Shown here piece after piece: positions 5,651 to 60,166 of a stretch of 60,416 nucleotides of DNA; within the stretch, counting starts at the first letter, position 1; each line of letters opens with the position of its first letter. The position numbers and the translations under genes were made by a program. Origin of the DNA: Tannerella sp. (GTDB taxonomy: Bacteria > Bacteroidota > Bacteroidia > Bacteroidales > Tannerellaceae); assembly GCA_031276175.1 (NCBI GenBank), contig JAISNP010000117.1:1-60416 (forward strand), given 5' to 3'. The notes below the pieces were generated by a model. It was not told the DNA's origin. It worked only from the letters and a program-made list of their open reading frames with translations, and did no database searches.

Positions 5651-5736
5651 GCGGCTCACCTTATAAGGTGAGTGCGGCTAACCTTGCAAGGTGAGTGTGG
5701 CTAACCTTATAAGGTGAGTGCGGCTAACCTTGCAAG
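5651..5736. repeat. Tandem array, 23-bp units with alternating palindromes
   Basis: Three full units start at 5651, 5674 and 5697, with a partial fourth at 5720. Each contains GYGGCT(A/C)ACC and a 12-bp palindrome, alternating between ACCTTATAAGGT and ACCTTGCAAGGT. It sits between the convergent ends of the beta-propeller gene and mfd. There is no T-run, so a simple terminator role is doubtful. Confidence 0.85.
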
Positions 5737-5754
5737 TTCCGTTCCGCTCCTTCA

Positions 5755-8700
5755 TTATACACATTCCTCCAGTTGTTCGATTTCGTTCAGACTGCGGCAG
5801 GCTGCGGATACGCCGGTAATATTGCGGATGACGATGCTGCGCTTGTTGCCATGCTCGCGGAAGTTGCAGGCGCGGGGATGAAACCGGACGTAGGCGATGA
5901 TTTTGCCGAACGTGCGGCTTTGATAATAAGGGCTGTCGGGCGCAGACGGCAGATACATGGTCATCGTGCCGTTCTTGAGCGCCAGCCTTTCGATGCCCAG
6001 CTTCTTTGCCGATTTGCGCAGGCTGACGACGCGTATCAGTTCTTCGCTTTTTTCCGGGATTTTGCCGAAGCGGTCGGTGAGTTTGTCGACGAATACGGCA
6101 AGCTGCTTTTCGTCGGTTATCGAATTCAGTTCGCGGTAGATGCCGACACGTTCGGAATCGTTCGGGATATAGGTCGGCGGAAACATGAGTTCCAGATCGC
6201 TTTCGATAAACGTTTCACGCACGTAACGTTCGCCCGTGTCGCTTTCCGGCGGAAAAAGTTCCGGAAATTCGTCGGCTTTGAGTTCGTCGACGGCTTCTTC
6301 GAGGATTCTCTGATACGTTTCGTAGCCCATGTCGGCAATGAATCCGCTCTGCTCGGCGCCGAGTATGTTGCCTGCGCCCCGTATGTCGAGGTCTTGCATG
6401 GCGATGTGGATGCCGCTGCCAAGTTCGGAGAGGTTTTCGATGGCCTGCAGGCGGCGGCACGATTCGGAAGAGAGCGTCGGGAGAGGCGGAGAAAGGAGAT
6501 AGCAAAACGCCTTGCGGTCGCTGCGCCCGACGCGTCCGCGTAACTGGTGCAGTTCCGAAAGGCCGAACCGGTGGGCGTCGTTCACGATAATGGTGTTCAC
6601 GTTCGGTATGTCGATGCCGTTCTCGACGATAGTCGTTGCAATCAGCACATCGTATTCGAAGTTGACGAAGTCGAGGATGATTTTTTCCAGTTTCTCCGGT
6701 TCCATCTGTCCGTGTCCGACGGCGATTCGTGCGTCGGGTATTTCGCGGCGGACGATTCTTTCTATCTCCGGAATGTTGCTTATGCGATTGTTAATGATAA
6801 ACGTTTGCCCGTTGCGGCTCATCTCAAACCCGATGGCTTCGCGGATAATGTCCGGGTTAAAACGCTGTATCTCCGTCTGCACGGGATAGCGGTTGGGAGG
6901 TGGGGTATGAATATTGCTCAGGTCGCGCGCGCCCATCAGCGAGAACTGAAGCGTGCGCGGGATGGGCGTTGCCGTCAAGGTCAGCGTATCGACGTTCGTC
7001 TTCATGCGGCGGAGTTTTTCCTTGACCGCTACGCCGAATTTCTGTTCCTCGTCGATGACGAGCAGTCCCAGATCCTTGAATACAACGTCGCTTCCGACCA
7101 GACGGTGCGTACCTATCAGGATGTTCAGTTTGCCGTCTTTCAATCGTTTGAGAATATCTCTGATGTCCGACGCCGGGCGGGCGCGGCTGATGTAATCGAC
7201 CGTGCACGGAAAGTCTTTGAGCCGTTCGGTAAATGTCTTGAAATGCTGGAAGGCCAGCACGGTAGTAGGCACGAGCACGGCCACCTGTTTGTTGTCCGTC
7301 ACGGCCTTGAAGGCGGCGCGGATGGCCACTTCCGTTTTGCCGAACCCTACGTCGCCGCAAATCAGGCGATCCATCGGGCGGTCGCTTTCCATATCGGCTT
7401 TCACTTCGGCGGAGGCCTTCATCTGGTCAGGCGTATCTTCGTAGATGAAACTTGCCTCCAGTTCGTCCTGAAGGAAGCTGTCGGGGCTGAAGGCGAATCC
7501 CTTCTCCTGCCGGCGCCGGGCGTAGATGCGAATCAGGTCGCGGGCAATGTCTTTGACTTTTTTCTTTGTGCGGTCTTTTATTCGTTCCCACGTCCCGCTC
7601 CCAAGTTTGTGCAACACGGGCGGCTCGCCGTCTTTCCCCTTGTATTTGGACAGCTTGTGCAACGCATGGATACCGACAAAGATAATGTCGCTGTTGCGGT
7701 ATACGAGTTTGACGGCTTCCTGCTTACGGCCGTTCACTTCGGTGCGGACAAGCCCTCCGAACATCCCGATGCCGTGGTCTGCGTGCACAATAAAATCGCC
7801 TGTCGCGAACTGATTCAGTTCCTTCACCGAAAGCATCATCTTTCCGCTGCGCACCCTGTCGCTTGCAAGGCTGTACTTGTGGTATCGCCCGAAAATCTGG
7901 TGATCGGTAAAGACGCATATCTTCATCGTATTGTCGACAAAGCCGGCATGGACTGTCCTGTCGATATGCGTGAAGGGAATATCGTCGCCCCTGTCGGCGA
8001 AAATGTCGCGCAGCCGCCCGGCCTGTCGGGGGCTGTCGGTAGATATATATAATGTATACCCGCTGTCGAGGTATTGACGAAACGAGCGGGCGACAAGATC
8101 GAAATTTTTCCGGTACGGCAGTTGCGGTTTGTTGTCGAAGGCCACCACCGCATCGGCCGTGTCGAACGCACGGTTGCCCGTCTCCAGCCGGTTGAACGAC
8201 GTCACGGATTCGAGAAACTCCGTTTTGTTTATCAGCGCCCCGCGCATGTCTTCGACGGAGGCGAACGACTCCGTTTCGCCGGCAACGGGCTTTTCGTTCC
8301 ACAAACTCTCTATCCGCTCCGCGCACCAAAGCAGGTTGGGCGCAACGATAACGGCATCGTCGGGCAAAAGGCCGAACAGCGATACTTTGCGACCCTGCCG
8401 GTTCGTTTCGGAAACGAGGGTGACGGCTTCGCGTTTTTCCCTCGACAGTTGCGTGTCGATGTCGAACGTGCGGATACTGTCGATCTCGTTACCGAAAAAG
8501 TCGATACGGTACGGATATTCATGAGAAAAAGAAAATACATCCACAATGCTGCCGCGCACGGCATACTGTCCCGGCTCGTACACGTAGTCCGTCTGCTCGA
8601 AACCCAGCGCGTCGAGCATTTCCACGACAAACAGGATGTCGACCGTTTCGCCGACGCGCACTTGCAGCATGTTTTCCTTCAGCGTTTCGCCGGAAGATAC

Positions 8701-9108
8701 CTTTTCGGCCAGCGCTTCGGGATAGCTGACGATGAGCGCATCGAGACGTTTCGCACCGCCGTAAAGCGCCATGAGCGTTTCGGTACGCAGGATTTCGTTC
8801 GGCGCATCGGGATGTCCGTACTTGATATGCCGACGATAGGCGGACGGAAAGAAAAGGACGTGCCGGCCGGTCATTTGCACAAGGTCGTTGTAGAAATACC
8901 CTGCATCTTCGGCGCTGTCGAGCACGCATAAAACACATCCCCCCCGCTTCATATAAAGCGAAGCTACCGTCATCGCCGTCCCCGACCCGTGCAATCCCTT
9001 CAACAATACAGTCTGTCGCCTGCTTTGCTGTTCATACAGGGCACAAATCGCTTTCACCTGCGGATGATCGGAGTATAACCGTATCAACTCGGAAAGATTC
9101 AAGCTCAA
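5755..9108 (-). CDS. mfd: Transcription-repair coupling factor
   Basis: An ATP-driven DNA translocase that removes stalled RNA polymerase from lesions and recruits UvrA. It is 1117 residues long, typical for Mfd. The N-terminal UvrB-like region includes YVYEPGQYAVRGSIVDVFSFS; the RNA-polymerase interaction region follows (GDFIVHADHGIGMFGGLV). The helicase domains carry Walker A (GDVGFGKTE, residues 585-593) and DEEQ (686-689), then LTATPIPRTL, the translocation segment and a C-terminal TRCF domain. No ATG fits the N-terminus; a TTG lies about 11 nt after the predicted transcription start. uvrA is also in this window, but in another transcription unit. Confidence 0.96.
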   Translation of the reverse strand: MSLNLSELIRLYSDHPQVKAICALYEQQSRRQTVLLKGLHGSGTAMTVASLYMKRGGCVLCVLDSAEDAGYFYNDLVQMTGRHVLFFPSAYRRHIKYGHPDAPNEILRTETLMALYGGAKRLDALIVSYPEALAEKVSSGETLKENMLQVRVGETVDILFVVEMLDALGFEQTDYVYEPGQYAVRGSIVDVFSFSHEYPYRIDFFGNEIDSIRTFDIDTQLSREKREAVTLVSETNRQGRKVSLFGLLPDDAVIVAPNLLWCAERIESLWNEKPVAGETESFASVEDMRGALINKTEFLESVTSFNRLETGNRAFDTADAVVAFDNKPQLPYRKNFDLVARSFRQYLDSGYTLYISTDSPRQAGRLRDIFADRGDDIPFTHIDRTVHAGFVDNTMKICVFTDHQIFGRYHKYSLASDRVRSGKMMLSVKELNQFATGDFIVHADHGIGMFGGLVRTEVNGRKQEAVKLVYRNSDIIFVGIHALHKLSKYKGKDGEPPVLHKLGSGTWERIKDRTKKKVKDIARDLIRIYARRRQEKGFAFSPDSFLQDELEASFIYEDTPDQMKASAEVKADMESDRPMDRLICGDVGFGKTEVAIRAAFKAVTDNKQVAVLVPTTVLAFQHFKTFTERLKDFPCTVDYISRARPASDIRDILKRLKDGKLNILIGTHRLVGSDVVFKDLGLLVIDEEQKFGVAVKEKLRRMKTNVDTLTLTATPIPRTLQFSLMGARDLSNIHTPPPNRYPVQTEIQRFNPDIIREAIGFEMSRNGQTFIINNRISNIPEIERIVRREIPDARIAVGHGQMEPEKLEKIILDFVNFEYDVLIATTIVENGIDIPNVNTIIVNDAHRFGLSELHQLRGRVGRSDRKAFCYLLSPPLPTLSSESCRRLQAIENLSELGSGIHIAMQDLDIRGAGNILGAEQSGFIADMGYETYQRILEEAVDELKADEFPELFPPESDTGERYVRETFIESDLELMFPPTYIPNDSERVGIYRELNSITDEKQLAVFVDKLTDRFGKIPEKSEELIRVVSLRKSAKKLGIERLALKNGTMTMYLPSAPDSPYYQSRTFGKIIAYVRFHPRACNFREHGNKRSIVIRNITGVSAACRSLNEIEQLEECV

Positions 9109-9125
9109 AATGTTAAAATCGCCGG

Positions 9126-9133
9126 CAAAGATA
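9126..9133 (-). promoter_or_regulatory. -7 promoter box TATCTTTG for mfd
   Basis: Exact TAnnTTTG match. It places transcription only about 11 nt before the TTG start of mfd. Confidence 0.6.
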
Positions 9134-9519
9134 CCATTTAATCCGAAATAAAGGAAAAACGGACAAAAAAATTTATTTTGCCCTGCCGATTAATAGCTTT
9201 ATGTTTTTTGCGACGGGAAATACACCTGACGCCGGAGGCGTTTCTCTGAAACAGGGGACATTTCCGGGGAAGGCCGTGGATGAAAGGTTAACGATAAACG
9301 ATGACCTGTAAACGATGAGTGATGGACGGCTATCGGTTAGTTTTAACGCCTGCGGCGTTAAGCATCTCTTTACACGATTCTTTTTGCCCTGCACTGCGCT
9401 ATGCCTGTACGGGGTTATCGGAAGGGAAACGCCGCAGGCATACGGTGCAGTATGTATGTCTCCTGTATCAAGATATAAAATTTTGCTCGAAACTCAGGCA
9501 AGAATACCGTGCGGCCACA
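9134..9519. other. Non-coding spacer with short hairpins
   Basis: No convincing gene on either strand. It contains short GC-rich hairpins, ACGCC-GGA-GGCGT (9229-9241) and TAACGCC-TGC-GGCGTTA (9344-9360), and a low-complexity stretch with repeated AACGAT words near 9290-9320. Confidence 0.5.
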
Positions 9520-9750
9520 ACTTGAAAACGCGAATTTATGACTTGTAAATTCGAATCTATGACTTATAAATTTGAATTTATAACTTGTAAATTTGAATCT
9601 ATGACTTGTAAATTTGAATTTATAACTTGTAAATTCGAATCTACAACTTGTAAATTCGAATTTATAACTTTAAAACTTGAGTATAAAACCTGAAAATCCG
9701 CGTTTACGACTCAAAAACGTCCGTGATTCACTCATCGTCCGTGATTTATT
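9520..9750. repeat. Tandem array, 21-bp AT-rich units (about 11)
   Basis: Eleven consecutive 21-bp units start with ACTTGTAAATT or a variant. Units 2-7 (9541-9666) are well conserved and roughly alternate endings GAATCTATG and GAATTTATA; units 1 and 8-11 are progressively degraded. Several contain the TTCGAA palindrome. The plus strand is open as seven-residue repeats for 51 codons (9538-9693), which is expected for a 21-bp repeat and is not taken as a gene. It lies between mfd and mgtE. Confidence 0.88.
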
Positions 9751-9932
9751 GTTCGCTGTTTTTAAAAAAAATGCTCCCCCGGCCTCCGGTGCGTGGAGGA
9801 GGGGCGGGAAAGTTTTCGGGAGGGGGAGGAAGAAATGTTTTCACGAATGGTGCGCCATGCTGCACACGGCACGGGAGGGAATGAGGGCTTTCAGTCGGGA
9901 CGATGACGGTCGGGACGGAGAAAACAAGCGAA

Positions 9933-11282
9933 TCAGTGCATTAATGCCGAAGAGATAAGCATGTAGATAAGCATCCCGATGATGTCGTTGGTGATGGAGA
10001 TGAACGGCCCGGTGGCAAGGGCGGGGTCTATGCGCAGGCGGTTGAGGAGCATGGGTACGACCGTTCCGAAGATGCTGGCGAACAGTACTACGGAGAAAAG
10101 GCTTGCGGAGACGGAAATCGTGATGTTCTGGTCGCCCAGCGTAAAGACGTTGTAGAGGAAAACAATCATGCTGATAATCGTTGCATTGATAAGCGCGACG
10201 GCGGCTTCTTTTGCGATCTGGCGGAAGATGCGGTTTTGCTTGAGGGAGTTGTTTGCCAGTCCCTGCACGACGATGGCGGAGGACTGAATCCCGACGTTTC
10301 CGCCCGTTCCGCCGATAAGGGGGATAAAGAGCGCCATCTTGGGATTGTCGGCAAAGCCGAGTTCGAATCCGCCAAGTATCACCGAATTGCTCAGTCCGCC
10401 GATCATCCCGATCAGCAGCCACGGGAGGCGTGCGACGGTTTGGAGGAAAACTTTGTCGGACGATTCGACGTCGTGCGAGATACCCGAAGCCAGCTGGTAG
10501 TCGCGCTCGTGCTGTTCCTGCATTTCGTCCATGACGTCGTCCACGGTGATGTGCCCCACAAGGCGCCCGATGCTGTCGATTACGGGGAGCGAGACGAGGT
10601 CGTATTTTTTAATCATTTCCGTCACGGTCTCGATGCTGTCGCTGTCGTGCACGAGGACGGGGTCGCGCTGCATCACGTGTTTGATTTTGGATATCGACGG
10701 GTTGGTGATGAGTTTCTGCAACGGCAACATGCCTCGCAGCCGGTCGTCGTTGTCGACGACGTATACATTATATATTTCGTCCATCTCTTCGGCCTGCTTG
10801 CGCATTTCTTCGATACACTGGGGCATACTCCAGTTTTCGTTTACCACGATCATTTCCGTGCCCATAAGTCCGCCGGCGGTATCTTCGTCGTACTTGAGCA
10901 GGTCGACGATGTCTCCCGCCTGCTCCACGTCCTCGATGTGCGAAAGGATTTCTTCCTGCGTATCTTCGTCGAGGTCGCGCATCAGGTCTACGGCGTCGTC
11001 GGTATCCATTTTGTCGATAAACCGTTTGGCGATCTGTTCCGAGGGGATTTCCTTGAGCAGGCGTCGCCGGTCTTCCTCTTCGAGTTCCATAAGCACGTCG
11101 GCCGTCTTGTCGCCGTCCATGAGCATGTAGAGGTAGATGACTTCCTGAAGGTCCAGTTCACGGTACAGTTCGGCAATGTCGGCCGCATGCAGTTCGTCCA
11201 GCAGGGCAAGCGCCTTTGCATCTTCTTTTGCGGCGATAATGCGCCGGAGGTTTTCGATGTATTCTTTTGTAAATTCAATCAT
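9933..11282 (-). CDS. mgtE: Magnesium transporter MgtE
   Basis: An inner-membrane Mg2+ channel gated by cytosolic magnesium. Its 449 residues show the family order: N-terminal helical superhelical domain (residues 1-125), two CBS domains (about 130-255, with HVMQRDPVLVHDSDSIETV and HITVDDVMDEM), a plug helix, and five membrane helices including PLIGGTGGNVGIQSSAIVVQGLA and the C-terminal SITNDIIGMLIYMLISS. The start at MIEFTKEYIE overlaps the end of rsmA by eight bases, indicating translational coupling. Longer frames run back into rsmA and are rejected. Confidence 0.95.
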   Translation of the reverse strand: MIEFTKEYIENLRRIIAAKEDAKALALLDELHAADIAELYRELDLQEVIYLYMLMDGDKTADVLMELEEEDRRRLLKEIPSEQIAKRFIDKMDTDDAVDLMRDLDEDTQEEILSHIEDVEQAGDIVDLLKYDEDTAGGLMGTEMIVVNENWSMPQCIEEMRKQAEEMDEIYNVYVVDNDDRLRGMLPLQKLITNPSISKIKHVMQRDPVLVHDSDSIETVTEMIKKYDLVSLPVIDSIGRLVGHITVDDVMDEMQEQHERDYQLASGISHDVESSDKVFLQTVARLPWLLIGMIGGLSNSVILGGFELGFADNPKMALFIPLIGGTGGNVGIQSSAIVVQGLANNSLKQNRIFRQIAKEAAVALINATIISMIVFLYNVFTLGDQNITISVSASLFSVVLFASIFGTVVPMLLNRLRIDPALATGPFISITNDIIGMLIYMLISSALMH

Positions 11283-12102: not shown

Positions 12103-12142
12103 CCGTTTTCAATGTTTTCCGCGTTTATCCGAAAAATATATT

Positions 12143-12150
12143 TATATTTG
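12143..12150 (+). promoter_or_regulatory. -7 promoter box TATATTTG
   Basis: Plus-strand TAnnTTTG match about 44 bp before the ATG of the LPG-synthase-like gene. It lies only 6 bp from the opposing box for rsmA. Confidence 0.6.
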
Positions 12151-12156
12151 CGGCCA

Positions 12157-12164
12157 CAAAGGTA
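12157..12164 (-). promoter_or_regulatory. -7 promoter box TACCTTTG for rsmA
   Basis: Minus-strand TAnnTTTG match about 55 bp before the rsmA start. It is back to back with the plus-strand box at 12143-12150, so the two promoters overlap physically. Confidence 0.6.
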
Positions 12165-12193
12165 TGAATTTTTTTTAATAGCTTGATATATTC

Positions 12194-13186: not shown

Positions 13187-13238
13187 TCCTGTTCGGAATT
13201 ATCTTAAACTATATATCAAACAAATAAACAAAAGAATT

Positions 13239-18773: not shown

Positions 18774-19331
18774 GTGTGTACCGTGCATGACATATAATTA
18801 GGTGGTGTAAGTCCACTATGGGTGGGGGTAGGTAGCGATCAACCGTTAGCTGAAAGCAAGGGTGTCCATAGCGATGTGGAATCCGAAGGAAGCCTGCGAC
18901 AAAATCCCGGCTGAGGAACACGAACATCATATAAGGCTCAAGTCGCAGGATGAGTTTGCCGAACAAAACAAAGTCCGAAAGCTATCCGGAACGGCGGAGT
19001 AAATGATGCGGATATATGGGATGAAGGTTATTAATCTTACCACGGGAGATCTCACGGACGTGCGGACGTTTTTTTCGGAAACATGGCTAACAATTGCAGT
19101 GAGAAGTCAGCCGAAGTCATAGCAGATACGGACACAGGCCTGCAAGAGAAAAAGAGCAGGACGTCTCACGAAGTATTAAAGAACAGAACCTTATTGTAAG
19201 TGAGTAGTAAAAGAATGTTACCTGAGTGTAAGAACGGATGCAGAGTATATCAGTATCGAATGATAGCTACCTTGAAAAAGACAGGACGGAATCCGAAGTC
19301 AATCAAGGAGTGCAGACTTTCCTTGGGATAA
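18774..19331 (+). mobile_element. Truncated group II intron (5' RNA domains only)
   Basis: Starts with GTGTG, fitting the group II 5' consensus GUGYG. It continues with landmarks known from bacterial group II introns: GGTGGTGTAAGTCCACTATG, TAGGTAGCGATCAACCGTTA, AGCAAGGGTGTCC, ATCTTACCACGGGAGATC, and AGTCAGCCGAAGTCATAG near 19106. No reverse transcriptase and no domain V/VI hairpin is present before guaA, so the element cannot splice. A 38-codon open frame (19215-19331, ending [17 protein letters not shown]) may be a leftover of the intron-encoded region, but it is not recognisable as a reverse transcriptase. The 3' limit is uncertain. Confidence 0.8.
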
Positions 19332-22850: not shown

Positions 22851-22945
22851 CTAAAGAACGTATCTTTAGGGGAAAGGATGAGCGAAGAAAAAGTGCTTTT
22901 TCTTACGTCGAACTCACGTTATCAATTCTCCGCCGCCTTCTTTTC

Positions 22946-23053
22946 AAACGATAACTATCTCTTGATAAAAAGATAACTATCGTTTCTCCAAACGATAGTT
23001 ATCTTTTTAAAATTCATCGGTAATCGTTTTTGAAAAGAACGGTAATCGTTTTA
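22946..23053. repeat. Degenerate ~22-bp repeat with a 19-bp perfect hairpin
   Basis: Related words ATAACTATC (22951), ATAACTATC (22973), ATAGTTATC (22995), TAATCG (23021) and TAATCG (23043) recur about every 22 bp. The centre is a perfect 19-bp inverted repeat (22967-22985 with 22990-23008) with a CTCC loop and A/T runs on both sides. It could act as a bidirectional terminator, for the minus-strand FG-GAP gene in particular (its stop is at 23071). Confidence 0.75.
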
Positions 23054-27860: not shown

Positions 27861-28091
27861 CCAACGAAGGTTCGGTTGTCTCCAACCAAAGTTCGGTTGT
27901 CTCCAACGAAGGTTTGGTTGTCTCCAACCAAGGTTTGGTTGGAGTCGCCGAAAGTTTGGTTGGCTCCAACCAAGGTTTGGTTGGAGTCGCCGAAGGTTTG
28001 GTTGCCTCCAACCAAGGTTTGGTTGGAGTCGCCGAAGGTTTGGTTGGAGTAGAATAAAGTTTGGTTGGCATCGCCCGGATAATTGTCGGTT
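27861..28091. repeat. Tandem array, 21-bp units (about 11) within the pilus locus
   Basis: Eleven 21-bp units in constant register from 27861. The common core is AAGGTTTGGTTG; units alternate between starts CCAACC and TCGCCG from unit 4 on. The CCAACC type forms a perfect hairpin CCAACCAA-GGT-TTGGTTGG. The last two units are degraded. It occupies most of the gap between the FISUMP fimbrillin gene and the FG-GAP gene. Confidence 0.9.
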
Positions 28092-35301: not shown

Positions 35302-35901
35302 ATTGTTCGCAATATTGTCGACGTCTCCGCCGAAAGTGTCGACGTCTCCGCCGAAAGTGTCGACGTCTCTGCCAAGAGTGTCGACGTCTCCGCCGAAAGT
35401 GTCGACGTCTGTGCCGAAAGTGTCGACGTCTGTGCCGAAAGTGTCGACGTCTCTGCCGAAAGTGTCGACGTCTGCGCCGAGAATGTCGACGTCTGTGCCG
35501 AAAGTGTCGACGTCTCCGCCGAAAGTGTCGACGTCTCTGCCAAGAATGTCGACGTCTGCGCCGAAAGTGTCGACGTCTCCGCCAAGGTTGTCGACGTCTG
35601 CGCCGAAAGTGTCGACGTCTGCGCCGAAAGTGTCGACGTCTGTGCCGAAAGTGTCGACGTCTCCGCCGAAAGTGTCGACGTCTGCGCCGAGAGTGTCGAC
35701 GTCTCCGCTGAAAGTGTCGACGTCTGCGCCAAGGTTGTCGACGTCTGCGCCGAAAGTGTCGACGTCTGCGCCAAGGTTGTCGACGTCTGCGCCAAGGTTG
35801 TCGACGTCTCCGCCGAAAGTGTCGACGTCTGCGCCGAGAGTGTCGACGTCGTGCGTGTCATTGTCGGCAATAAACCGGATATTGTCGACAATGCACGTTT
35901 T
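35302..35901. repeat. Tandem array, 25 perfect-register 21-bp units with distinct caps
   Basis: Twenty-five units run from 35317 to 35841 with no insertion or deletion. Every unit starts with the invariant GTCGACGTCT; the remaining 11 bases vary (for example CCGCCGAAAGT, GTGCCGAAAGT, GCGCCAAGGTT). Both ends carry units of another type: ATTGTTCGCAAT/ATTGTCGAC on the left (35302-35322) and ATTGTCGGCAAT/ATTGTCGACAAT on the right (35860 and 35881), as in the 47.4-kb array. It lies between the divergent pilus operon and the methyltransferase gene. Both strands are open in frame because the unit is seven codons. Confidence 0.93.
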
Positions 35902-40936: not shown

Positions 40937-41170
40937 GAAATGAAGCAAGGTTTACGTCCGTAAAGGTAGGCAAAATAAATGAAACGGCAAGCGTGCGGCC
41001 TCCGAAATATGAATGGAGGCATGTTGCTTTTCGAATAAAAGCATACCTGCCGTGTTTGTAAGAATATATATGTATAAGCGCAGTGCCGGCAGCTTGCGGT
41101 GCGGAGATGAAACCCTCTCCGGCTGCCTGATTCGATGAATTGCGGAGTTTTCATTGCCGGCGAAAGCGAA

Positions 41171-41270
41171 TCATGTACGGCCAACACTAATCATGTATGG
41201 CCAACCCTAATCATGTATGGCCAACCCTAATCGTGTATGGCCAACCCTAATCGTGTACGGCCAAAACTAA
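41171..41270. repeat. Tandem array, five 20-bp units
   Basis: Five 20-bp units of the form TCRTGTAYGGCCAAMMCTAA with few substitutions, each with the TGGCCA or CGGCCA core. A partial sixth unit (TCATGG) ends inside the fmt 3' flank. It lies between the recJ leader and fmt. Confidence 0.9.
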
Positions 41271-41314
41271 TCATGGTTGAATGGAAATTTCCTGTTTTTT
41301 TGCGCGATGAACGG

Positions 41315-47332: not shown

Positions 47333-47377
47333 CTAATCACCGTTCCGATTTTTCCGGCTTAGCGTGAGTTCAATCTA

Positions 47378-47770
47378 TTAGAAACTGTTTTGAATTAGCA
47401 TAAATGTTTATCGGCAGGTAGTATTTCTTCTTTTTATTGTCGACGATAACTCATTTATTGTCGACAATAATTCGGTTATTGTCGACGGTAACTCATTTAT
47501 TGTCGACAGTAACTCGGTTATTGTCGACGATAACTCATTTATTGTCGACAATAATTCGGTTATTGTCGACGATAACTCATTTATTGTCGACAGTAATTCG
47601 ATTATTGTCGACGATAACTCATTTATTGTCGACAGTAACTCGGTTATTGTCGACGATAACTCATTTATTGTCGACGGTAATTCGGTTATTGTCGACGATA
47701 ACTCATTTATTGCCGACGGTAACTCGGTTATTGTCGGCAATATTTATGTTAATTCAAAACAGTTTCTTAA
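47378..47770. repeat. Tandem array of fifteen 21-bp units bracketed by an inverted repeat
   Basis: Units run from 47436 to 47750 in constant register. Each starts ATTGTCGAC (one has ATTGCCGAC, the last ATTGTCGGC), and endings alternate between ACTCATTT and TTCGGTT/CTCGGTT, giving a 42-bp dimer. On either side is an inverted copy of TTAGAAACTGTTTTGAATT-type sequence: 47378-47404 and 47743-47770, 27-28 bp with one mismatch and one indel. The right copy overlaps the last codons and the TGA stop of the FemAB-like gene. The whole looks like a small mobile-element-like unit with a repeat core. Confidence 0.9.
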
Positions 47771-48719
47771 TATATTTCCGAAATTTGATTCCGGCTCTGT
47801 CCGTCAGGCTCAATTTTCCCTTGCTTATTGCGAAATAGGGTGTTTGAACTGCTCCGAACTCACGGAAGAAGCGTTCGACGCCGGGTAACATGGAGCCTTC
47901 GAAATCGAATGTCTCCGAGTGAGCGGCGGCGAACCGTATGGCTTCCCAGAGGACAAGGCTATGCGCGCAGGAACGTCGGAGCGCAGGATCACCGCCACCG
48001 GCAATGTAATAAGCCGCGCTTTGTTGATATACGACGAAAGCCGTTGCGTGCAGTCTCTCCTGTCTGTCGTATCCTCCCCATATTTCGCCTTGCCCGCGCC
48101 GGCGGCATACGTGGACAAGACGGCGCAGTACGTGCGGATCTTGCCCGTTTCTTTTATTTTGTCGTTCGAAAGTCTGCGCCTGAAGCCGGAGAAGGTCGTC
48201 CGCAGGAACGCCCTGCCTGACTGTAATGTGGGCACATTCACGTGCCGCGTGGATGTTCCGCCGCATGTTCCGGTTCATGCCGTTCCACAGCAGTTCGCTG
48301 TTTTTCAGATTTCCGAGCAGATAGGTATAACGTGTGGTCTGGCCGTATCCGTTCCAGTAGAAAGGCAGCCAGTCGGTGAAGGAGTGATTGAAATTTTGCA
48401 GGAAACTGCGCGCGTCCAGTTTCTCAATTAATTGTTTACACAGCGTTTGCCGCTGTTCCAGCATCGTACCGTATTTCGTGTCGTTGCCTGACGGGGGGGC
48501 AAACCATATACCCATTGTTTGCGTGTAGGGGGGCATGGTGACGACGCCGCGCAAGGGCATGTAGAGAGGCCATGCGGCTAAAATTCTACCGTTTTTTTCG
48601 ATAAGCAGCACATCCCAGTTTGTTTCGCCGCACGTTGCGTCCAACCACCAGTCCTGCGAGAAGATGGGGATGCTTTTTTCCGTTCGACAAAGCGTACGGT
48701 ATGTCTGTTTTGACGTCAC
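47754..48719 (-). CDS. FemAB/GNAT-like acyltransferase family protein
   Basis: A 321-residue protein whose C-terminal half follows the GNAT-fold pattern of FemAB-like or BioF2-like transferases: NRNMRRNIHAARECAHITVR, DLLRLQAQTFERQNKRNG, then LHATAFVVYQQSAAYYIAGGGDPALR and FDFEGSMLPGVERFFREFGA. Members transfer aminoacyl or acyl groups, for example to peptidoglycan precursors; the substrate here is unknown. Translation probably starts at GTG. It begins 18 bp after the recA stop and its last codons lie inside an inverted repeat flanking the 47.4-kb array. Confidence 0.72.
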   Translation of the reverse strand: MTSKQTYRTLCRTEKSIPIFSQDWWLDATCGETNWDVLLIEKNGRILAAWPLYMPLRGVVTMPPYTQTMGIWFAPPSGNDTKYGTMLEQRQTLCKQLIEKLDARSFLQNFNHSFTDWLPFYWNGYGQTTRYTYLLGNLKNSELLWNGMNRNMRRNIHAARECAHITVRQGVPADDLLRLQAQTFERQNKRNGQDPHVLRRLVHVCRRRGQGEIWGGYDRQERLHATAFVVYQQSAAYYIAGGGDPALRRSCAHSLVLWEAIRFAAAHSETFDFEGSMLPGVERFFREFGAVQTPYFAISKGKLSLTDRAGIKFRKYIKKLF

Positions 48720-50267: not shown

Positions 50268-51461
<1,194 letters not shown>

Positions 51462-52468: not shown

Positions 52469-52503
52469 TATAAATTATTGCTTATACTAATTTGTCGAGG
52501 TTG

Positions 52504-52511
52504 CAAAGATA
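52504..52511 (-). promoter_or_regulatory. -7 promoter box TATCTTTG for the cyclophilin gene
   Basis: Exact TAnnTTTG match on the minus strand, 36 bp before the ATG. It faces away from the plus-strand box at 52532-52539. Confidence 0.6.
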
Positions 52512-52531
52512 GAATGAATTGCAAAAAGGCC

Positions 52532-52539
52532 TACCTTTG
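52532..52539 (+). promoter_or_regulatory. -7 promoter box TACCTTTG for the transporter gene
   Basis: Exact TAnnTTTG match about 39 bp before the ATG at 52578. It forms a divergent pair with the cyclophilin promoter. Confidence 0.6.
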
Positions 52540-52577
52540 CAGCCGGATTTTATCAATAATTCTTATTATCATCTATT

Positions 52578-54254: not shown

Positions 54255-54255
54255 C

Positions 54256-54282
54256 CACTCCGCAGTGCGCTTTTGCGGGGTG
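54256..54282 (+). terminator. Hairpin after the transporter gene
   Basis: CACTCCGCA with TGCGGGGTG, one G-T pair in a 9-bp stem. No T-run follows, so it is only a possible terminator or RNA-stabilising structure. Confidence 0.35.
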
Positions 54283-54612
54283 ACCGAAAGGAAAACGCCG
54301 GCATACGGGATTGCGGATTATTACATCCCGTTCGAATCCCGCTCCCCACTCATCTCTCATCACTCATCACTCACAACTCACAAGTTTTCCGAAGCGAAAA
54401 AAACGGAAACCTGCTGCTGCCGCACGGCAATTCCATGGACGGAACCATTTTCCCGTTTTCCTCCCCGGTTCCGACCGGATAATATTCCGGGGAAAAAGAG
54501 AGCCATGCCGAAACAAACGCCGTCTGCCGCCGCACTTCATCCGCATCCGGGCTGCGACAATCCGAAATGCACGCTTTTTCTCTCCGCCGCGCGATTAAAA
54601 CAAAAAAGCAAG
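54283..54612. other. Non-coding spacer with low-complexity CTCAT repeats
   Basis: No gene was recognised. It contains a run of TCATCACTCATCACTCACA-like words near 54345-54380, and related ACTCATTGCTCAC words occur near 55935. Confidence 0.5.
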
Positions 54613-54620
54613 TATCTTTG
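54613..54620 (+). promoter_or_regulatory. -7 promoter box TATCTTTG
   Basis: Exact TAnnTTTG match 29 bp before the ATG at 54649 of the PQQ-like beta-propeller gene. Confidence 0.6.
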
Positions 54621-54648
54621 TTTCGAAAATTAATAAATGTTTTATGGT

Positions 54649-55926
54649 ATGAAATCAAAAAGATTATTCAAAATTATCGGCGCATGTACGGTGTGTACAT
54701 GCCTGTGTGCGCCGCTGTCGAACGCACAACATTTTCACGGATGGCGAGGCGCCGGTCGCGACGGAATCTATCACGAAACCGGATTGCTGAAAACATGGGC
54801 CGAAAACGGCCCTCAACTGCTGTGGGAAACGCTCGACGCAGGCAAGGGATACTCAAGCCCCGTCGTTGCGGGCGACAGGCTTTACATCACGGGACTGAAC
54901 GACGACAACGACAGAGAAGTCTTTTCCGCCTACACGCTCGACGGGAAACAACTCTACCGCACCACCTGCGGCTCGCCATGGAACGACTCCTACATCGAAA
55001 GCCGCACTACGCCCACCATTGTCGGCGACAGGGCATACGTAGTGAGCGGAATGGGCGAAGTGGCGTGCATCGCCGTTGCCGACGGTAAAATCATCTGGAC
55101 GGTGAACGGCGAAAAAGAATTTGCACGCAAACAAGGTAACTGGGGCACTTCCGAATCGCCGCTGGTGTATGACAACAAGGTTTTCTACACGCCGGGAGGC
55201 GACAAAACGGCTATGGTTGCCCTCGATGCCGCTACGGGAAAGACCGTCTGGGAATCAAAACCGTTCAACGAATTCAGCGCCTACGTGTCGCCCCTGCTGA
55301 TTAATCACAAGGGAAAACGGCAAATCGTCGGCATGACGTCCGGACACGTCTTCGGCGTGAATCCCGACAACGGAAATATCGAATGGGCTTTCGACGACTT
55401 CGGCGGAGACAGAACGCCCGAAAACGGCGGTAAAATATCCACCAATACTCCCCTGTTTAAAGACGGACGGATATTTGTCTGCAACGGATACAACGACGCC
55501 TCCTTCATGCTGGAACTGAACGACGACGCTACCTCGGTCAAACTGCTCTGGCGCAACAGCGAATTAGATACGCACATCGGCGGCTTTGTACTGGTGAACG
55601 GCATCATCTACGGCTCCAACTGGATTAATAACGGCAACGGCAACTGGGTGGCCGTCGACTGGAATACCGGCGAAACCCGGTACGAAAATACCTGGACAGG
55701 CGGCAAAAGCAAAGGCTCCATAATCGCTGCGGACAATATGCTCTACTGCTACGACGAACGGCGCGGAACGGTCGGACTGGTGAATCCCGACCCGGAGAAA
55801 TTCGACGTCGTCAGCGAATTTCGCATCACCAAAGGCGAGGGACCGCACTGGGCGCATCCGGTCATCCATAACGGCACGCTGTACGTCCGTCACGGCTCGG
55901 CGCTGATGGCCTACAAAATCAAATAA
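54649..55926 (+). CDS. Secreted PQQ-like beta-propeller protein
   Basis: A 425-residue exported protein (signal peptide from MKSKRLFKIIGAC, cleavage likely near SNAQ). It has repeated ~40-residue modules with WxTLDAGKGYSSPVV, AYVVSGMGEVACIAVADGKIIW and MVALDAATGKTVWESKPF, the PQQ-like propeller pattern that also includes BamB-like proteins. The N-terminal HFHGWRGAGRDGIYHETGLLKTW is typical of Bacteroidota/Planctomycetes secreted members. No quinone site can be assigned. An ATG four codons upstream is possible. It converges with a second PQQ-like gene 19 bp away. Confidence 0.85.
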   Translation: MKSKRLFKIIGACTVCTCLCAPLSNAQHFHGWRGAGRDGIYHETGLLKTWAENGPQLLWETLDAGKGYSSPVVAGDRLYITGLNDDNDREVFSAYTLDGKQLYRTTCGSPWNDSYIESRTTPTIVGDRAYVVSGMGEVACIAVADGKIIWTVNGEKEFARKQGNWGTSESPLVYDNKVFYTPGGDKTAMVALDAATGKTVWESKPFNEFSAYVSPLLINHKGKRQIVGMTSGHVFGVNPDNGNIEWAFDDFGGDRTPENGGKISTNTPLFKDGRIFVCNGYNDASFMLELNDDATSVKLLWRNSELDTHIGGFVLVNGIIYGSNWINNGNGNWVAVDWNTGETRYENTWTGGKSKGSIIAADNMLYCYDERRGTVGLVNPDPEKFDVVSEFRITKGEGPHWAHPVIHNGTLYVRHGSALMAYKIK

Positions 55927-55945
55927 AAAAGGAATCACTCATTGC

Positions 55946-57082
55946 TCACTTTTCCCCAAAGCAAAACAGCGTGCCCTTTGTCGTCAGGATATAAAAACGT
56001 CCCTCGACGACGGCAGGGCAGGCCGTGATTTGCTCGCCGGTATCGTATTCCCACAGCAGAGTCCCCCCGTCGGCGTCGAGCAGGGAAACGATGCCGTTTT
56101 TGGCGCAGGAGATGACCTTGTCGCGACACACCACCGGCGAGCTTTCGCCCGAAGCGCCTTTCTGAAGATATTTCCAGCGCACCTCGCCCGTCTCGCGGTC
56201 GATCGCATACAGATGGCGGTCGCCGGAGAGGATGAAAAGCGTGGCGCCCGAAAGCGCAGGCACCGACACGAACGATTCGCCCTCGGCGGAAGCCTGCACG
56301 ATTTTGTGCGAACGGGCGATTTTCCCCTCCCTGAGCATGAGTGCATACACGTTTCCCGCATGGTCGGCGACGTAAGCGAAATCCCCGTCAATGGCGGGCG
56401 AGGCGGGCACATAGGTATCTAATTGGAGCGAATCGGACGGCGCGCCGGTCGTGCCGTCGATAATGCGCAACCATGCGTCACATCCGCCTGAAACAAAATA
56501 ACGCTGCCACAGGGCTACGGCGCCGTTGATGTAGTACCCCGACGGGAAGCGGCTGATCTCCACGCCGCGCACCCTGTCCACGCAATAAAGGTAATTGTCG
56601 TAGCTTCCGAACACCACGGCCTGCCTGCCCTCGAAAACCCCGATATTCGGCGAGGCCGAAACCTGCCCCATCGTTTCAAAATTCCAGAGCGTATCTCTGC
56701 CGGACAGCGAGAGCGCGCTCATGAAGCCGTCGATACGCCCGATGTAAAGCACGGAATCGCGTATCATCGGCGTGGCCTCGACGGCGGTTCGGAAGTCGTA
56801 ATCAAAACAGGCACGACCGTCTTTGTCTATGCCGTAAATATGTCCGCGCTTGCTGCACCAGTAAGCCGTGTGGTGATACACCACCGGAGAAGACGCCGTC
56901 CGCTCGTCGCTCCTGTACGTCCAGAGCAGCGAGGGCTTGTCGGGCAGGCGGACACGGGCACAGCCGCTCAGTTGCGCGTCGCCGCGAAACAGCGGCCACG
57001 ATGATGCGTCGCCGGCCGGCCGGGAGCAGGCCGCCGCAAGCGCCAGAAGACTTATATACGGTAAAGCGCGGAAACAGGACAT
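55946..57082 (-). CDS. PQQ-like beta-propeller lipoprotein
   Basis: A 378-residue lipoprotein; the start MSCFRALPYISLLALAAAC gives a lipobox cysteine near residue 19, while longer frames run into the preceding gene. Repeats such as SLLWTYRSDERTASSPVVYHHTAYW, LYIGRIDGFMSALSLSGRDTLW, YAIDRETGEVRWKYLQKGASGESSPVV and SLLDADGGTLLWEYDTGEQITACPAVV define the propeller. It overlaps the end of the 2Fe-2S protein gene by 31 bp, so it is translated from the same message and may sit at the membrane side of the same redox system. Confidence 0.83.
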   Translation of the reverse strand: MSCFRALPYISLLALAAACSRPAGDASSWPLFRGDAQLSGCARVRLPDKPSLLWTYRSDERTASSPVVYHHTAYWCSKRGHIYGIDKDGRACFDYDFRTAVEATPMIRDSVLYIGRIDGFMSALSLSGRDTLWNFETMGQVSASPNIGVFEGRQAVVFGSYDNYLYCVDRVRGVEISRFPSGYYINGAVALWQRYFVSGGCDAWLRIIDGTTGAPSDSLQLDTYVPASPAIDGDFAYVADHAGNVYALMLREGKIARSHKIVQASAEGESFVSVPALSGATLFILSGDRHLYAIDRETGEVRWKYLQKGASGESSPVVCRDKVISCAKNGIVSLLDADGGTLLWEYDTGEQITACPAVVEGRFYILTTKGTLFCFGEK

Positions 57083-58362
57083 AATTCGGCGACTTGTTCG
57101 TGGATGTTGTTTTCGTTCTCTTCGGGAAGCGTCACCTGCATCACAAATCCGCGCCCGCTGAACGTGAAGCCGTCGTCGGTGTTGTACACGCACAGGCCGC
57201 ACTTGATGCACTTTGCCGGCTCGAACACGATGTGTGCGCCTATCCTCCGGCGATGGAGCGCTTCGCGTGCGCCCTCCTTCGCGTAGCGTGTGTTTTTGAT
57301 GCCGTATTCCGTGGCATAGCGGCGCAGGCTGCAAGAGGTTTTCCCCGCGCAATCGCAGTACAGGCAGTTTGTTTGTGTGGAAGGAGGATGATTGTTCAGC
57401 CGGCGTTTTTCGGCGTCGGTAAAGCGCGGGTAGGTGGAATTGAAAACCCTCCCCTCCCCTTCTTCCGGCATACTGCCTGCGGAGAGCGACGCATGTATAT
57501 GCCCGGCCGTGCGACGGCCTTCCAACACCATGCGCGCCGGCTGTCTTGATTTCGTCTGCGGGATAATCGCGTCGAAATCGCCGGACGAAGGCGGTTCGGA
57601 GGTGTGCCGCAGCGTCACGCCCATCCTCCTGACGACCTCCGTTTCCAGTGCGAGTATGTCGGCGGGCACGCGCTCCGCATCAATGTAGGGAGCGAGCATC
57701 CGTCCCGACGGCTCGAATAGCGTGACGGCATACCCCAGCTTGCACAGATGGTAGGCGGCAGCCAGCGCGGCAGGGTCGGAGCCGGTAACGGCTATTTTCT
57801 TCCCGTTGCGCGCGGCGGGCGGGGCGATGGCGTCCAAATCGGTTTGCGCCACCAAGCTCTTCTTGATTTCGCGCACCGCGACGGGCTTGTCGACCGCGCC
57901 CTTGCGGCAAATCTTCTCGCACGGCGCCGGGCAGATGAAGCAGAGCGTGCCCGGTATCACCAGCGTGTCGCGCAGCAGGGCGAGCGCCTCGCCGGTTTTC
58001 CCCTCGTCGCACAGGCGGTTCATGGCGGCTACGTCCATGTTGCCCGGACAGGCCACGCCGCAGGGCGCCTCGCAATCGGCGCGATGGTCGCTCAGCAGGA
58101 GTTCGAGAGAAAGGGTGCGGCTCAGCCTGACTTCCTGAGTGTCGGTTTCGATCCTCATGCCCTCCGTCGGCATGGTCGTGCAGGCGGGGATAATCTGGCC
58201 GGTAGCGTCGTTCTTCACCGCGCATATCATGCACGACGATCGGTGCTTCGCGTCCTTCGCATAGCAGAGGGAGGGAATCGCGAAGCCTTCCCTGCGGGCT
58301 GTTTCTATCAGGCTTTCGCCCGGCAGCGCCGTTACTTCTTTGTTGTTGATGGACAGTTTCAT
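57052..58362 (-). CDS. Multi-cluster iron-sulfur protein with degenerate FAD-type fold
   Basis: A 436-residue redox protein. Residues 1-75 form a NuoG/HydA-like 2Fe-2S domain (C33, C44, C47, C61). Then CEAPCGVACPGNMDV and CFICPAPCEKICRKGAV match the 4Fe-4S region of GltD-like proteins, followed by a dinucleotide-fold stretch VTGSDPAALAAAYHLCKLGYAVTLFE whose second and third glycines are replaced. An unusual CLYCDCAGKTSC cluster and a C-terminal ferredoxin-like CIKCGLCVYN ... CPVSALY follow. It is likely a subunit partner of the NuoF/HydB-like protein at the window end, although other genes lie between. Substrate and donors are unknown. Confidence 0.72.
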   Translation of the reverse strand: MKLSINNKEVTALPGESLIETARREGFAIPSLCYAKDAKHRSSCMICAVKNDATGQIIPACTTMPTEGMRIETDTQEVRLSRTLSLELLLSDHRADCEAPCGVACPGNMDVAAMNRLCDEGKTGEALALLRDTLVIPGTLCFICPAPCEKICRKGAVDKPVAVREIKKSLVAQTDLDAIAPPAARNGKKIAVTGSDPAALAAAYHLCKLGYAVTLFEPSGRMLAPYIDAERVPADILALETEVVRRMGVTLRHTSEPPSSGDFDAIIPQTKSRQPARMVLEGRRTAGHIHASLSAGSMPEEGEGRVFNSTYPRFTDAEKRRLNNHPPSTQTNCLYCDCAGKTSCSLRRYATEYGIKNTRYAKEGAREALHRRRIGAHIVFEPAKCIKCGLCVYNTDDGFTFSGRGFVMQVTLPEENENNIHEQVAELCPVSALYRI

Positions 58363-58483
58363 TTATGAGTGATGAGTTTTAAAACCCCGCCCAAAGGGTA
58401 GTGCGGATGATTGTGCCATGCTGCTTCATAAGCAATATCTCGTCTGATTCGTTGTGCTTCGACATGACGACACTGTGATTCTT

Positions 58484-58996
58484 TCATGCTTTACGTTTTG
58501 AAGCACTTAAAAAATTATTTACTATACCCTCAATTTCATTTATGTCAGCGTCTTTTTTAACAGGCAATAGTTTATATTGTTTTACACTGTCGAAATGTAT
58601 TTCGTTCAAGCGTTCTTCAATCAATTCTAATTGCTTTATTTTATCGTCTGACAATTTCTTTGCATCAATTACTTGAATGAACAATATGTCTTTTAAGTCT
58701 ATGCTTTCTTTGTCCCGCATATATTGGGTTGACAAGGCAGAGGTAAGGTATTTGCCGCAAATCTTAGTCGGAATAAAACCGGATTCTTCGATTTCAATAA
58801 TAATACGCCCCAGCCCGTCTTGTATTATCATTGCGTCTACTTTACATAGCCGGTTTTTACGGCCTTTGTAATTCCCGGCAAAGAGCGATATTTGCTGACT
58901 TCCGCCACAAGCTTCATCACAAATGATTTTTATAATGCTTGTTTCAAGTAGAGATAAAATATCCCCAATTTTTTTGTGTAATGGATGTTCTAACAT
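58484..58996 (-). CDS. Hypothetical protein, possible nuclease-like core
   Basis: A 170-residue protein of unknown family. The stretch CKVDAMIIQ ... GRIIIEIEESGFIPTKICGKYL could fit the beta-strand and acidic residues of a PD-(D/E)xK fold (D, then ExE, then K), but this is speculative. The region is visibly richer in A/T than its neighbours, compatible with transfer. It sits between the redox gene and a hairpin-rich spacer and has no obvious operon partner. Confidence 0.6.
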   Translation of the reverse strand: MLEHPLHKKIGDILSLLETSIIKIICDEACGGSQQISLFAGNYKGRKNRLCKVDAMIIQDGLGRIIIEIEESGFIPTKICGKYLTSALSTQYMRDKESIDLKDILFIQVIDAKKLSDDKIKQLELIEERLNEIHFDSVKQYKLLPVKKDADINEIEGIVNNFLSASKRKA

Positions 58997-59114
58997 AATA
59001 CTGTTGTTTTAAGTTATACGATTAATAATTCCACACGGTGCGGTGCTTTCTTTTCCCCGCGCCGAATGCTTTTCCTTTAATTCTTTATAATGAGTATCGT
59101 ATTCATTGCCTAAT

Positions 59115-59362
59115 CAGCCTGAAGGGCTGTATTTTCATAACCGCAATGCCATTGCCGTTCGGACGAGATTCCATCTCGTTCGTGCTATCCGTGAGATTCC
59201 ATCTCACATAAATAATATTCGGATGAAATCCGCAGTGATAGACAGGACGAGCCGGCATCTCGCCCGAACGGAGGGTGTCCTGCCTTTCAGGCAGCCGTGG
59301 CGGAGCGACTTCCGTGCCGGCGGTAGCCGACCGCCGGTTATGAAAATTGCGGCTTTCAGCCG
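59115..59362. repeat. Series of at least eight short hairpins
   Basis: Consecutive perfect short inverted repeats: CAGCC..GGCTG (59115), GCAAT..ATTGC (59143), CGAGA..TCTCG (59164), GTGAGA..TCTCAC (59191), CGGAT..ATCCG (59220), CTGCC..GGCAG (59280), CCGGCGGT..ACCGCCGG (59317), CGGCT..AGCCG (59350). Many share a loop of type TTYCA. Stem sequences differ while pairing is kept. No convincing protein gene lies in the segment between 58997 and 59444. Confidence 0.75.
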
Positions 59363-59444
59363 AGTGAGGCAGCATATCCGATATACGTTTTATTGATTCC
59401 ATAATCACTACTGTTTATACAAAATTCGGGAAAGTATTTATTCA

Positions 59445-59690
59445 CTAATATTGAAGCACAAAGTCCTTATTGTTCATCATGACCGAAGCATAGAGCAAGC
59501 ACGCCGATATATCGTCCTGCCGGATGTAAGGATAGTCGGCAAGAATTTCGTTGAACGTCATGCCGGAGGCAATCAGTTCGAGCATTTGCGCCACCGTAAA
59601 ACGCATCCCCCTGATGGTGGGCTTTCCTTTGCATATCGACGCATCAATGGTGATGCGGGTCAGTAAGTCTTGTGTTGCCATATAATTCAT
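59445..59690 (-). CDS. DUF433-domain protein
   Basis: A small protein of 81 residues: LTRITIDASICKGKPTIRGMRFTVAQMLELIASGMTFNEILADYPYIRQDDISACLLYAS matches the DUF433 fold, a winged-helix-like domain proposed as an antitoxin, usually next to a DUF5615/PIN-like toxin. No toxin partner was found on either side, so it is an orphan here. The ATG at 59690 was chosen; another is three codons downstream. Confidence 0.85.
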   Translation of the reverse strand: MNYMATQDLLTRITIDASICKGKPTIRGMRFTVAQMLELIASGMTFNEILADYPYIRQDDISACLLYASVMMNNKDFVLQY

Positions 59691-59808
59691 TATTCTTTTC
59701 CTGCAAATATACGCTATATATTCATAATCCATGTACGATGAACGGGTTCATGCACAATCCCTCCTTCCGTTGAACGTCCCGCATAGCGGCGGAATCTGCC
59801 GGCTCGAA

Positions 59809-60166
59809 GTGTCCGCGACGAGAAATTCCGCTGAATTTTCTTCCGTGGAGTCTCCGGGACGAAAAATTCCATTGAATTTTCTTCCGTGGAGTGTCCGGGA
59901 CGAAAAATTCCGCTGAATTTTCTTCCGCGGAGTGTCCGCGACGAGAAATTCCGCTGAATTTTCTTCCGTGGAGTGTCCGGGACGAAAAATTCCATTGAAT
60001 TTTCTTCCGTGGAGTCTCCGGGACGAAAAATTCCGTTGAATTTTCTTCCGTGGAGTCTCCGGGACGAAAAATTCCGTTGAATTTTCTTCCGTGGAGTGTC
60101 CGGGACGAAAAATTCCGTTGAATTTTCTTCCGTGGAGTCTCCGGGACGAAAAATTCCGCTGAATTC
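59809..60166. repeat. Tandem array, 41-bp hairpin units (8.7 copies)
   Basis: Units start at 59809, 59850, 59891, 59932, 59973, 60014, 60055, 60096 and 60137 (partial), an exact 41-bp period. Each carries AAAATTC-N4-GAATTTT (or AGAAATTC in two units), a hairpin, and a GGAGTCTCC/GGAGTGTCC element. Because 41 is not a multiple of three, each minus-strand frame cycles through three copies and stays open for 41 residues per cycle; this is not taken as coding. It lies between the DUF433 gene and the ferredoxin-type gene. Confidence 0.92.

Follow-up and report, generated by a model that had tools for sequence, protein, structure and literature searches.

Intergenic tandem arrays of largely free sequence and near-constant unit length, about two or four helical turns, in Tannerella genomes

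The window, that is, the whole 60,416-nucleotide stretch of Tannerella sp. DNA analysed here, is contig C90 of a metagenome-assembled genome (G000; 2,794,297 bases, 145 contigs, 90.8% complete). It includes mfd, uvrA, mgtE, guaA, recJ, fmt, a Mfa1-type fimbria gene and a gene for a protein with a type IX secretion system tail, and its Mfd protein was best matched by Tannerella sp. records (82% to L030 and 75% to L009). In a preliminary description, eight intergenic tandem arrays were noted in the window, with units of unrelated sequence, a near-constant length close to two (or four) DNA helical turns and a short palindrome in each. All eight were recovered by Tandem Repeats Finder (TRF), with starts shifted by 0–14 bases, and all eight fall between called genes; seven exhibited scores of 136–783, and the one at 22945 scored 57. 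The near-constant length with free sequence was strongly supported in the sampled part of G000, where the 82 intergenic arrays belong to 44 sequence families. The arrays of the window, as called by TRF and without strand, and two inverted repeats found by local alignment of flanks are as follows.

5650..5731, no strand: 23-bp array, 3.6 copies, dyad ACCTTATAAGGT (p 0.01)
9519..9674, no strand: 21-bp array, 7.5 copies, TTCGAA core, dyad p 0.01
22945..22997, no strand: weak 22-bp repeat, 2.4 copies, score 57, 70% match
27861..28075, no strand: 21-bp array, 8.9 copies, dyad CCAACCAAGGTTTGGTTGG
35316..35855, no strand: 21-bp array, 25.7 copies, GTCGAC core at 21-bp intervals, in a divergent gap
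41169..41275, no strand: 20-bp array, 5.3 copies, downstream of fmt
47372..47408, plus strand: left inverted repeat of the 47433 array, containing GAAACTGTTTTGAATT
47433..47736, no strand: 21-bp array, 14.5 copies, core TTATTGTCGACAATAA, dyad p 0.065
47739..47776, minus strand: right inverted repeat of the 47433 array, overlapping the 3' end of the neighbouring gene
59808..60165, no strand: 41-bp array, 8.7 copies, dyad AAAATTC..GAATTTT (p 0.005)

The repeat at 22945 is a doubtful member of the set. The 5650 array separates two convergent genes, mfd and one encoding a beta-propeller, the 9519 array is located between mfd and mgtE, and the 47433 array begins 17 bp past a stop codon. The arrays at 9519, 27861 (42/84-bp higher order) and 47433 (42-bp alternation) were better described as 42 bp, and the one at 41169 scored slightly better as 40 bp. 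The palindrome expected in every unit was significant in four of the seven strong arrays (5650, 9519, 27861 and 59808; p ≤ 0.01, the 27861 dyad being matched by 0 of 200 shuffles) and borderline in 47433, but shuffled units did as well as those of 35316 (p 0.675, beyond its GTCGAC core) and 41169 (p 0.84). The sequences were found to be mostly unrelated, except that the GTCGAC core is common to 35316 and 47433 and that five of the seven strong arrays have relatives elsewhere in the G000 sample. The 9519, 47433 and 59808 arrays belong to families of 5, 9 and 4 in that sample, respectively; the 35316 array, followed by two degenerate GTCG-type copies to about 35897 (by eye), has 7 further matching places in the G000 genome. 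The flanks of the 47433 array aligned with a score of 29 (99% null quantile, 17.3), and their inverted repeat is a possible end of a miniature inverted-repeat transposable element (MITE). A CRISPR reading was rejected for the window, the units of which lie head to tail without unique spacers; no search was made for cas genes.

Genome-scale counts were made with TRF at a score of at least 100 unless stated otherwise. The G000 sample comprised 865,917 bp (the window and at most 20 kb from each of contigs C1–C60), and that of G003, a complete congeneric chromosome, 400 kb in 20 stretches; 41 genomes made up the genus set compared. Genes were called in this analysis by hexamer scoring, with a caller that trims starts, and predicted open reading frames (ORFs) of which an array covered more than 40% were discarded as spurious, because 21 and 42 are multiples of three and arrays easily stay open. 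The period assigned was the shortest well-scoring one. In G000, 32 families presented periods of 20–23 bp and 8 of 40–44 bp, none fell at 24–39 bp or below 20 bp, and the remaining four were at 54, 62, 66 and 84 bp; exactly 21 bp was the period of 45 of the 82 intergenic arrays. Their density was 94.7 per Mb, or 12.4% of called noncoding DNA, which scales to about 265 arrays for the whole genome (by arithmetic, not by count). An array was located within 130 bp of 12 of the 101 contig ends examined (G000 sample L119–L158 and L199–L218), so that the assembly is probably interrupted at arrays and their number underestimated. The dozens of intergenic arrays at 20–23 or 40–46 bp that had been predicted were thus seen in this sample, and neither scattered periods nor equally frequent hits in genes, the outcomes that would have spoken against the pattern, occurred in it.

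The congener G003 displayed the doubled length. Its 78 intergenic arrays belong to 46 families, 39 of them at 40–44 bp, with one each at 20–23 bp, 24–39 bp and below 20 bp and four others; the density was 195 per Mb, and intergenic arrays of any period made up 27.8% of called noncoding DNA. In 252,545 bp of G020, seven intergenic arrays were found, all of 21, 41 or 42 bp, with one more in a gene. Five further congeners were sampled at 70–80 kb each: G002 presented seven intergenic arrays (periods at a score of at least 50: 21 bp three times, 23, 42 twice, 77 and 83), G034 and G024 one array each (22 and 33 bp, respectively), and G001 and G005 no intergenic arrays, so that densities across the genus samples ranged from 0 to 195 per Mb. 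G002 also carries, at L258 12077–15173, about 40 tandem copies of a 77-bp unit, with a higher order of 230 bp, which do not follow the 21/42 rule. A weaker peak at 20–24 bp was observed in a wider Bacteroidota sample of 75 of 80 mfd loci, five Tannerella-named records being excluded (1,334,606 bp, score of at least 50), with 28 of 58 intergenic arrays at that length, 5 at 40–46 bp, 9 at 25–39 bp and 4 at 8–19 bp. First-order Markov shuffles of 582,545 bp gave no arrays, and three stretches of Escherichia coli K-12 (150 kb) gave two, with periods of 33 and 101; the arrays are not chance. A codon effect, 21 and 42 being multiples of three, was considered and found insufficient, since G003 has nearly as many families at 41 bp as at 42 bp (16 and 19), and G000 has 7 families at 23 bp and 3 at 41 bp. 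Among two-copy intergenic repeats, 7 of 12 in G003 were at 40–44 bp (coding DNA, 0 of 12), and in G000 5 of 31 were at 20–23 bp and 7 of 31 at exactly 28 bp.

The arrays were concentrated between genes. Although the G000 sample is 81% coding, 82 arrays were intergenic and 8 in genes after the ORF-dropping rule, and the corresponding values for G003 were 78 and 4. Lengths of the 20–23 and 40–44 type were enriched between genes in G000 (73 of 82 against 1 of 8 in genes, p 1e-5), but this enrichment was not significant in G003 (63 of 78 against 2 of 4, p 0.19).

Dyads with p ≤ 0.05 against shuffles were found in 30 of 73 units of G000 and 30 of 63 of G003, and their cores differ among families (TTCGAA, GTCGAC, GTTAAC, CACGTG and others). 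In arrays with a clear dyad, the dyad-paired positions were about half as variable as the others, with values of 0.071 against 0.146 in G000 (lower in 25 of 29 arrays) and 0.043 against 0.090 in G003 (25 of 33). Among the eight 21-bp families with a dyad, the span of the dyad ranged between 12 and 21 bp, and the period did not vary. In G003, two separate dyads were present in 17 of 54 units of 40–44 bp (8.7 expected), offset by 18–21.5 bp in 14 of the 17 (82%; null 44%), and variability dropped again 16–19 bp from the first dyad; in G000, a second dyad was found in 7 of 14 such arrays (2.0 expected). The two halves of the long units of G003 are not alike (identity 0.261, null 0.25; 54 arrays), and these units are not 21-bp dimers that have diverged; those of G000 are such dimers in part (0.38 against 0.255; 14 arrays). 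Indels were scarce relative to substitutions, 16 to 1618 in G000 and 18 to 1249 in G003, compared with 20 to 435 in 38 flank alignments (Fisher p 1e-5), that is, about four-fold rarer, in a comparison that TRF tilts towards indel-free arrays; the constant register with few indels is that of a phased array, with the same bias. The units of G003 also displayed a 10.4-bp signal above dyad-matched intergenic controls (purine p 0.002, AA/TT p 0.0004, A/T p 0.03). In array-masked intergenic DNA of G003, dyad spacings were in excess at 39–44 bp (14 against 2.6) and 18–23 bp (10 against 1.3), with most bins raised, probably by degenerate arrays. Periodic dyads outside arrays were not supported for G000, where no excess at 18–23 bp was found in masked intergenic DNA; spacings there were raised at 27–29 bp (13 against 1.7) and 51–53 bp (10 against 1.7), which, together with the excess of 28-bp two-copy repeats, may perhaps reflect one dispersed element.

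The GTCGAC core was followed separately. In the G000 sample, 147 nearest pairs of GTCGAC lie 21 bp apart, and every other spacing up to 130 bp is represented by at most 3; on the G000 forward strand, 264 register triplets of the form GTCGAC(N15)GTCGAC(N15)GTCGAC were counted. The reversed control, CAGCTG, itself a palindrome, gave 0 in G000, 1 in G016 and 12 in G321. Of the 41 genus genomes, 8 contain the register pattern, as do 4 of the 295 genomes sampled from the order, G000 among them. Identity of the core among these arrays was 100% by selection and was not used as evidence; between-array identity of the spacers was 0.48, against 0.34 for unrelated ones, and the GTCGAC arrays are therefore partly related. 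The 21-bp register was also observed in three genomes from other families of the order (G192 C29, G079 C148 and G120 C15), and 89 stretches of IMG/VR viral contigs (L297–L376) contain three GTCGAC in 21-bp register, a number for which no expectation was computed.

Copy numbers differed between close relatives. G001, G002 and G005 are 90.6–92.1% identical at mfd, and opposite a 21-bp array of 11.9 copies in G002 (L259:17996–18245), the aligned gaps of the other two hold one well-matching unit (18 of 18 positions in G005 and 17 of 18 in G001), with nothing further in register in the G001 gap. The change at this one locus may have been a gain of copies. Among the other G002 loci compared, those at L257 and L260 have degenerate repeats in G005 and not an empty site, and the corresponding gap of G020 (38 bp against 157 bp) lacks the 5650 array of the window. 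The repeat-generating process proposed at the outset is supported by the differing copy numbers of one locus in three related genomes only; no machine was identified.

The earlier picture was amended in two further points: many of the arrays are members of dispersed families, and a small number are contained in MITE-like elements. In G000, 76 arrays of the listed periods belong to 43 families, the largest of 9. Inverted flanks were sought for 68 of these arrays, eight with a flank under 100 bp being omitted, and 9 of 68 exceeded the 95% null (about 3 expected), against 11 of 68 in the direct-orientation control; four exceeded the 99% null (scores 37, 35, 29 and 21). The best were L143:5767, L209:13974 and window 47433, and the first two have a common end sequence with 51 genome copies at no more than 3 mismatches. 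In G003, 13 of 65 exceeded the 95% null and 6 the 99% null, against 8 in the direct control. Inverted ends are convincing for a few arrays only, and terminal inverted repeats of the BrickBuilt/PgRS type are not a property of the 68 arrays as a set. MITE cargo was therefore rejected as the whole answer, most arrays having no inverted ends and the direct control being equally frequent, and was kept for the few.

Those few fit a precedent from the same order. BrickBuilt, a MITE of Porphyromonas gingivalis, has a 23-bp unit and 19 dispersed copies, with both ends kept in 4 of 19, and is a single family, sharing a leader and tail, that occurs in P. gingivalis and P. gulae; MITE464/PgRS has a 41-bp repeat without sequence relation to BrickBuilt, and strain W83 has 22-, 23- and 41-bp direct repeats (accessible portion of PMC4596501). 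Like BrickBuilt, which is partly flanked by terminal inverted repeats, the present arrays are intergenic tandem repeats without spacers, and like PgRS and the W83 repeats they include 41-bp units in a member of Bacteroidales; in the present arrays, however, there are tens of families, most without detectable terminal repeats, and a common length rule is not raised in that portion of PMC4596501. Intergenic tandem repeats of 22, 23 and 41 bp were found here as well, and the dominant lengths are 21 and 41–42 bp. The open-access literature searched, in which BrickBuilt was found, yielded no statement of a common two-turn length rule, which is no proof of absence. Plasmid iterons are direct repeats of about 20 bp, bound by protein in helical register. 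The present arrays resemble them in unit length, protein binding being the iterons' own feature and at most an analogy here, and differ in that iterons form one origin-linked array of one sequence, and here there are many chromosomal arrays.

Outside these subjects, a group II intron RNA match (RF02001, 126 bits) was observed at 18865–19035 of the window, about 200 bp upstream of guaA.

The explanation preferred, with a rough probability of 0.4, is that the arrays are amplified in place and retained as helically phased DNA sites for a largely sequence-tolerant factor. Short stretches of intergenic DNA, spanning about two (or four) helical turns, would be amplified in place into arrays; each unit would offer a short DNA site, often a dyad, at an equal rotational position and would thereby be retained; and a dimeric, largely sequence-tolerant factor, of the nucleoid or DNA-bending type, may line up along one face. 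A trans-acting protein would in this way read the spacing, and the spacing would be selected. Among the three mechanisms originally put forward (phased sites, a repeat-generating process and stacked RNA hairpins), phased DNA sites fit best, because dyads are conserved, other positions are free, indels are few and RNA polarity is absent. The explanation is moderately supported, and a neutral length-biased process is nearly as likely.

Several results weigh against phased sites. The factor remains hypothetical, no protein having been identified, and the range of 0 to 195 arrays per Mb among congeners implies no essential role. Before the ORF-dropping rule (score of at least 50, 582,545 bp of G000), the 80 arrays comprised 58 intergenic ones and 22 inside called genes, of which 10 had a period of 21 bp. 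Units of 22–23 bp, unequal to two 10.5-bp turns, make up 8 of the 44 G000 families, and three-turn periods, which phasing alone would allow, were not found among them. The period rule can favour 21 over 42 bp, and the TRF score penalises indels. No significant dyad was found in 43 of 73 units of G000 and 33 of 63 of G003; half-period placement (at least 18 bp) in the two-dyad arrays of G000, 4 of 7 with a null of 48%, was not clearly above chance; and the 10.5-bp signal of G000 units did not significantly exceed that of dyad-matched controls (purine p 0.077, A/T p 0.96, AA/TT p 0.88). In the first 300 of 414 array-masked intergenic segments of G000, dyads 18–23 bp apart numbered 5, against 5.3 in shuffles. 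Finally, the G005 gap opposite the L259 array contains weak in-register copies at +21 (10 of 18) and +63 (11 of 18), 21-bp steps gave the highest mean match among steps of 16 to 29, and the right flank of the G002 array resembles these weak copies (by eye). The G005 site may thus be a decayed array and not a virgin site: G002 may have expanded a short, decayed array already there, or G005 may have lost copies.

If the dyads acted instead as RNA, arrays of hairpins in 3' untranslated regions would stabilise or terminate transcripts, as proposed for repetitive extragenic palindromic (REP) elements. The enrichment of dyads in the units would agree with this, as would the 13 arrays in convergent gaps and, in co-directional gaps of G000, the position of the array closer to the upstream stop than to the downstream start in 27 of 36 cases with scored starts (p 0.004). 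This bias was, however, weaker and no longer significant when the longest ORF defined the start (24 of 36, p 0.065), G003 did not show it (23 of 39 and 17 of 39 with the two start rules), and arrays occupy divergent gaps too (14 in G000 and 16 in G003). Folding energy did not favour the sense strand, which was the more stable in 16 of 36 arrays of G000 (antisense, 18) and in 14 of 39 of G003 (antisense, 25). Moreover, selected hairpins should keep G.U pairs on the transcribed strand, but distinct G.T-type changes were balanced between strands (42 against 38 in G000, 36 against 36 in G003), as were sense and antisense changes (16:17 and 30:27), uniformly between arrays (heterogeneity p 0.94 and 0.29). 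Double compensations equalled the shuffled expectation (11 against 10.4 and 6 against 5.8). Since neither strand polarity nor compensation was found inside the dyads, the pattern lies at the DNA level, and the stacked RNA hairpins first suggested, disfavoured by strand stability and change polarity, are improbable. REP families of one genome share a sequence. As far as the consulted part of the literature describes them, REP elements, bacterial interspersed mosaic elements (BIMEs) and REPINs are, like the present arrays, intergenic, palindromic, regularly spaced and high in copy number, but REPs are sequence families tied to RAYT and do not have free sequence at a fixed length. BIME/REP elements mobilised by RAYT, a Y1 transposase, are the least probable explanation and a very unlikely one. 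One Y1_Tnp match, RAYT-like, was found in G000, on contig C38 (L156 14004–15824), amid a 41-bp array and two longer CGAGATTCTATCTCG hairpin-unit repeats with 165- and 207-bp periods, and BIME REPs are regularly spaced palindromes (PMC2817692, consulted portion). Set against this, no Y1_Tnp match was found in G027 (93% complete), whose mfd locus has a 21-bp array with a palindromic unit and which has 24 GTCGAC triplets in 21-bp register genome-wide, and the 82 arrays of G000 form 44 sequence families, not one palindromic family; RAYT/REP was rejected as a general cause on account of G027.

The closest competitor of phased sites holds that the arrays are neutral or selfish minisatellites, produced by replication or repair duplication whose intrinsic step is about 21 or 42 bp, dispersed through gene conversion and as MITE cargo, lost by recombination and without host function; it is a serious contender. 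Copy-number variation at one locus among related genomes, the dispersed families, the four arrays inside inverted ends over the 99% null, one end with 51 copies, and the wide range of densities among congeners all agree with it, as do the 40–44-bp two-copy repeats of G003 and the P. gingivalis MITEs with 23- and 41-bp units (PMC4596501, accessible portion). By itself it does not account for the halved variability of dyad positions or the rarity of indels; most arrays lack inverted ends, the two-copy repeats of G000 have no 20–23-bp peak, and those of G003 may be array remnants. It is also conceivable, though somewhat unlikely, that a genome-encoded trans-acting ruler, an amplifying recombinase or a polymerising DNA-binding protein, creates or keeps repeats of almost any sequence. 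Such a ruler would measure two turns in one species and four in a congener, and unit length would then be a setting of the whole genome and not of the individual repeat.

Bacterial minisatellites are usually seen as locus-specific accidents or as passengers of a single mobile element. In the genomes sampled here, tens of families in G000 follow one length, and the families of the congener G003 follow its double. If a protein measures the spacing, chromosome organisation in Bacteroidales would include a layer not described before; if a duplication bias is responsible instead, the arrays being its product, they would provide a handle on what sets repeat length.

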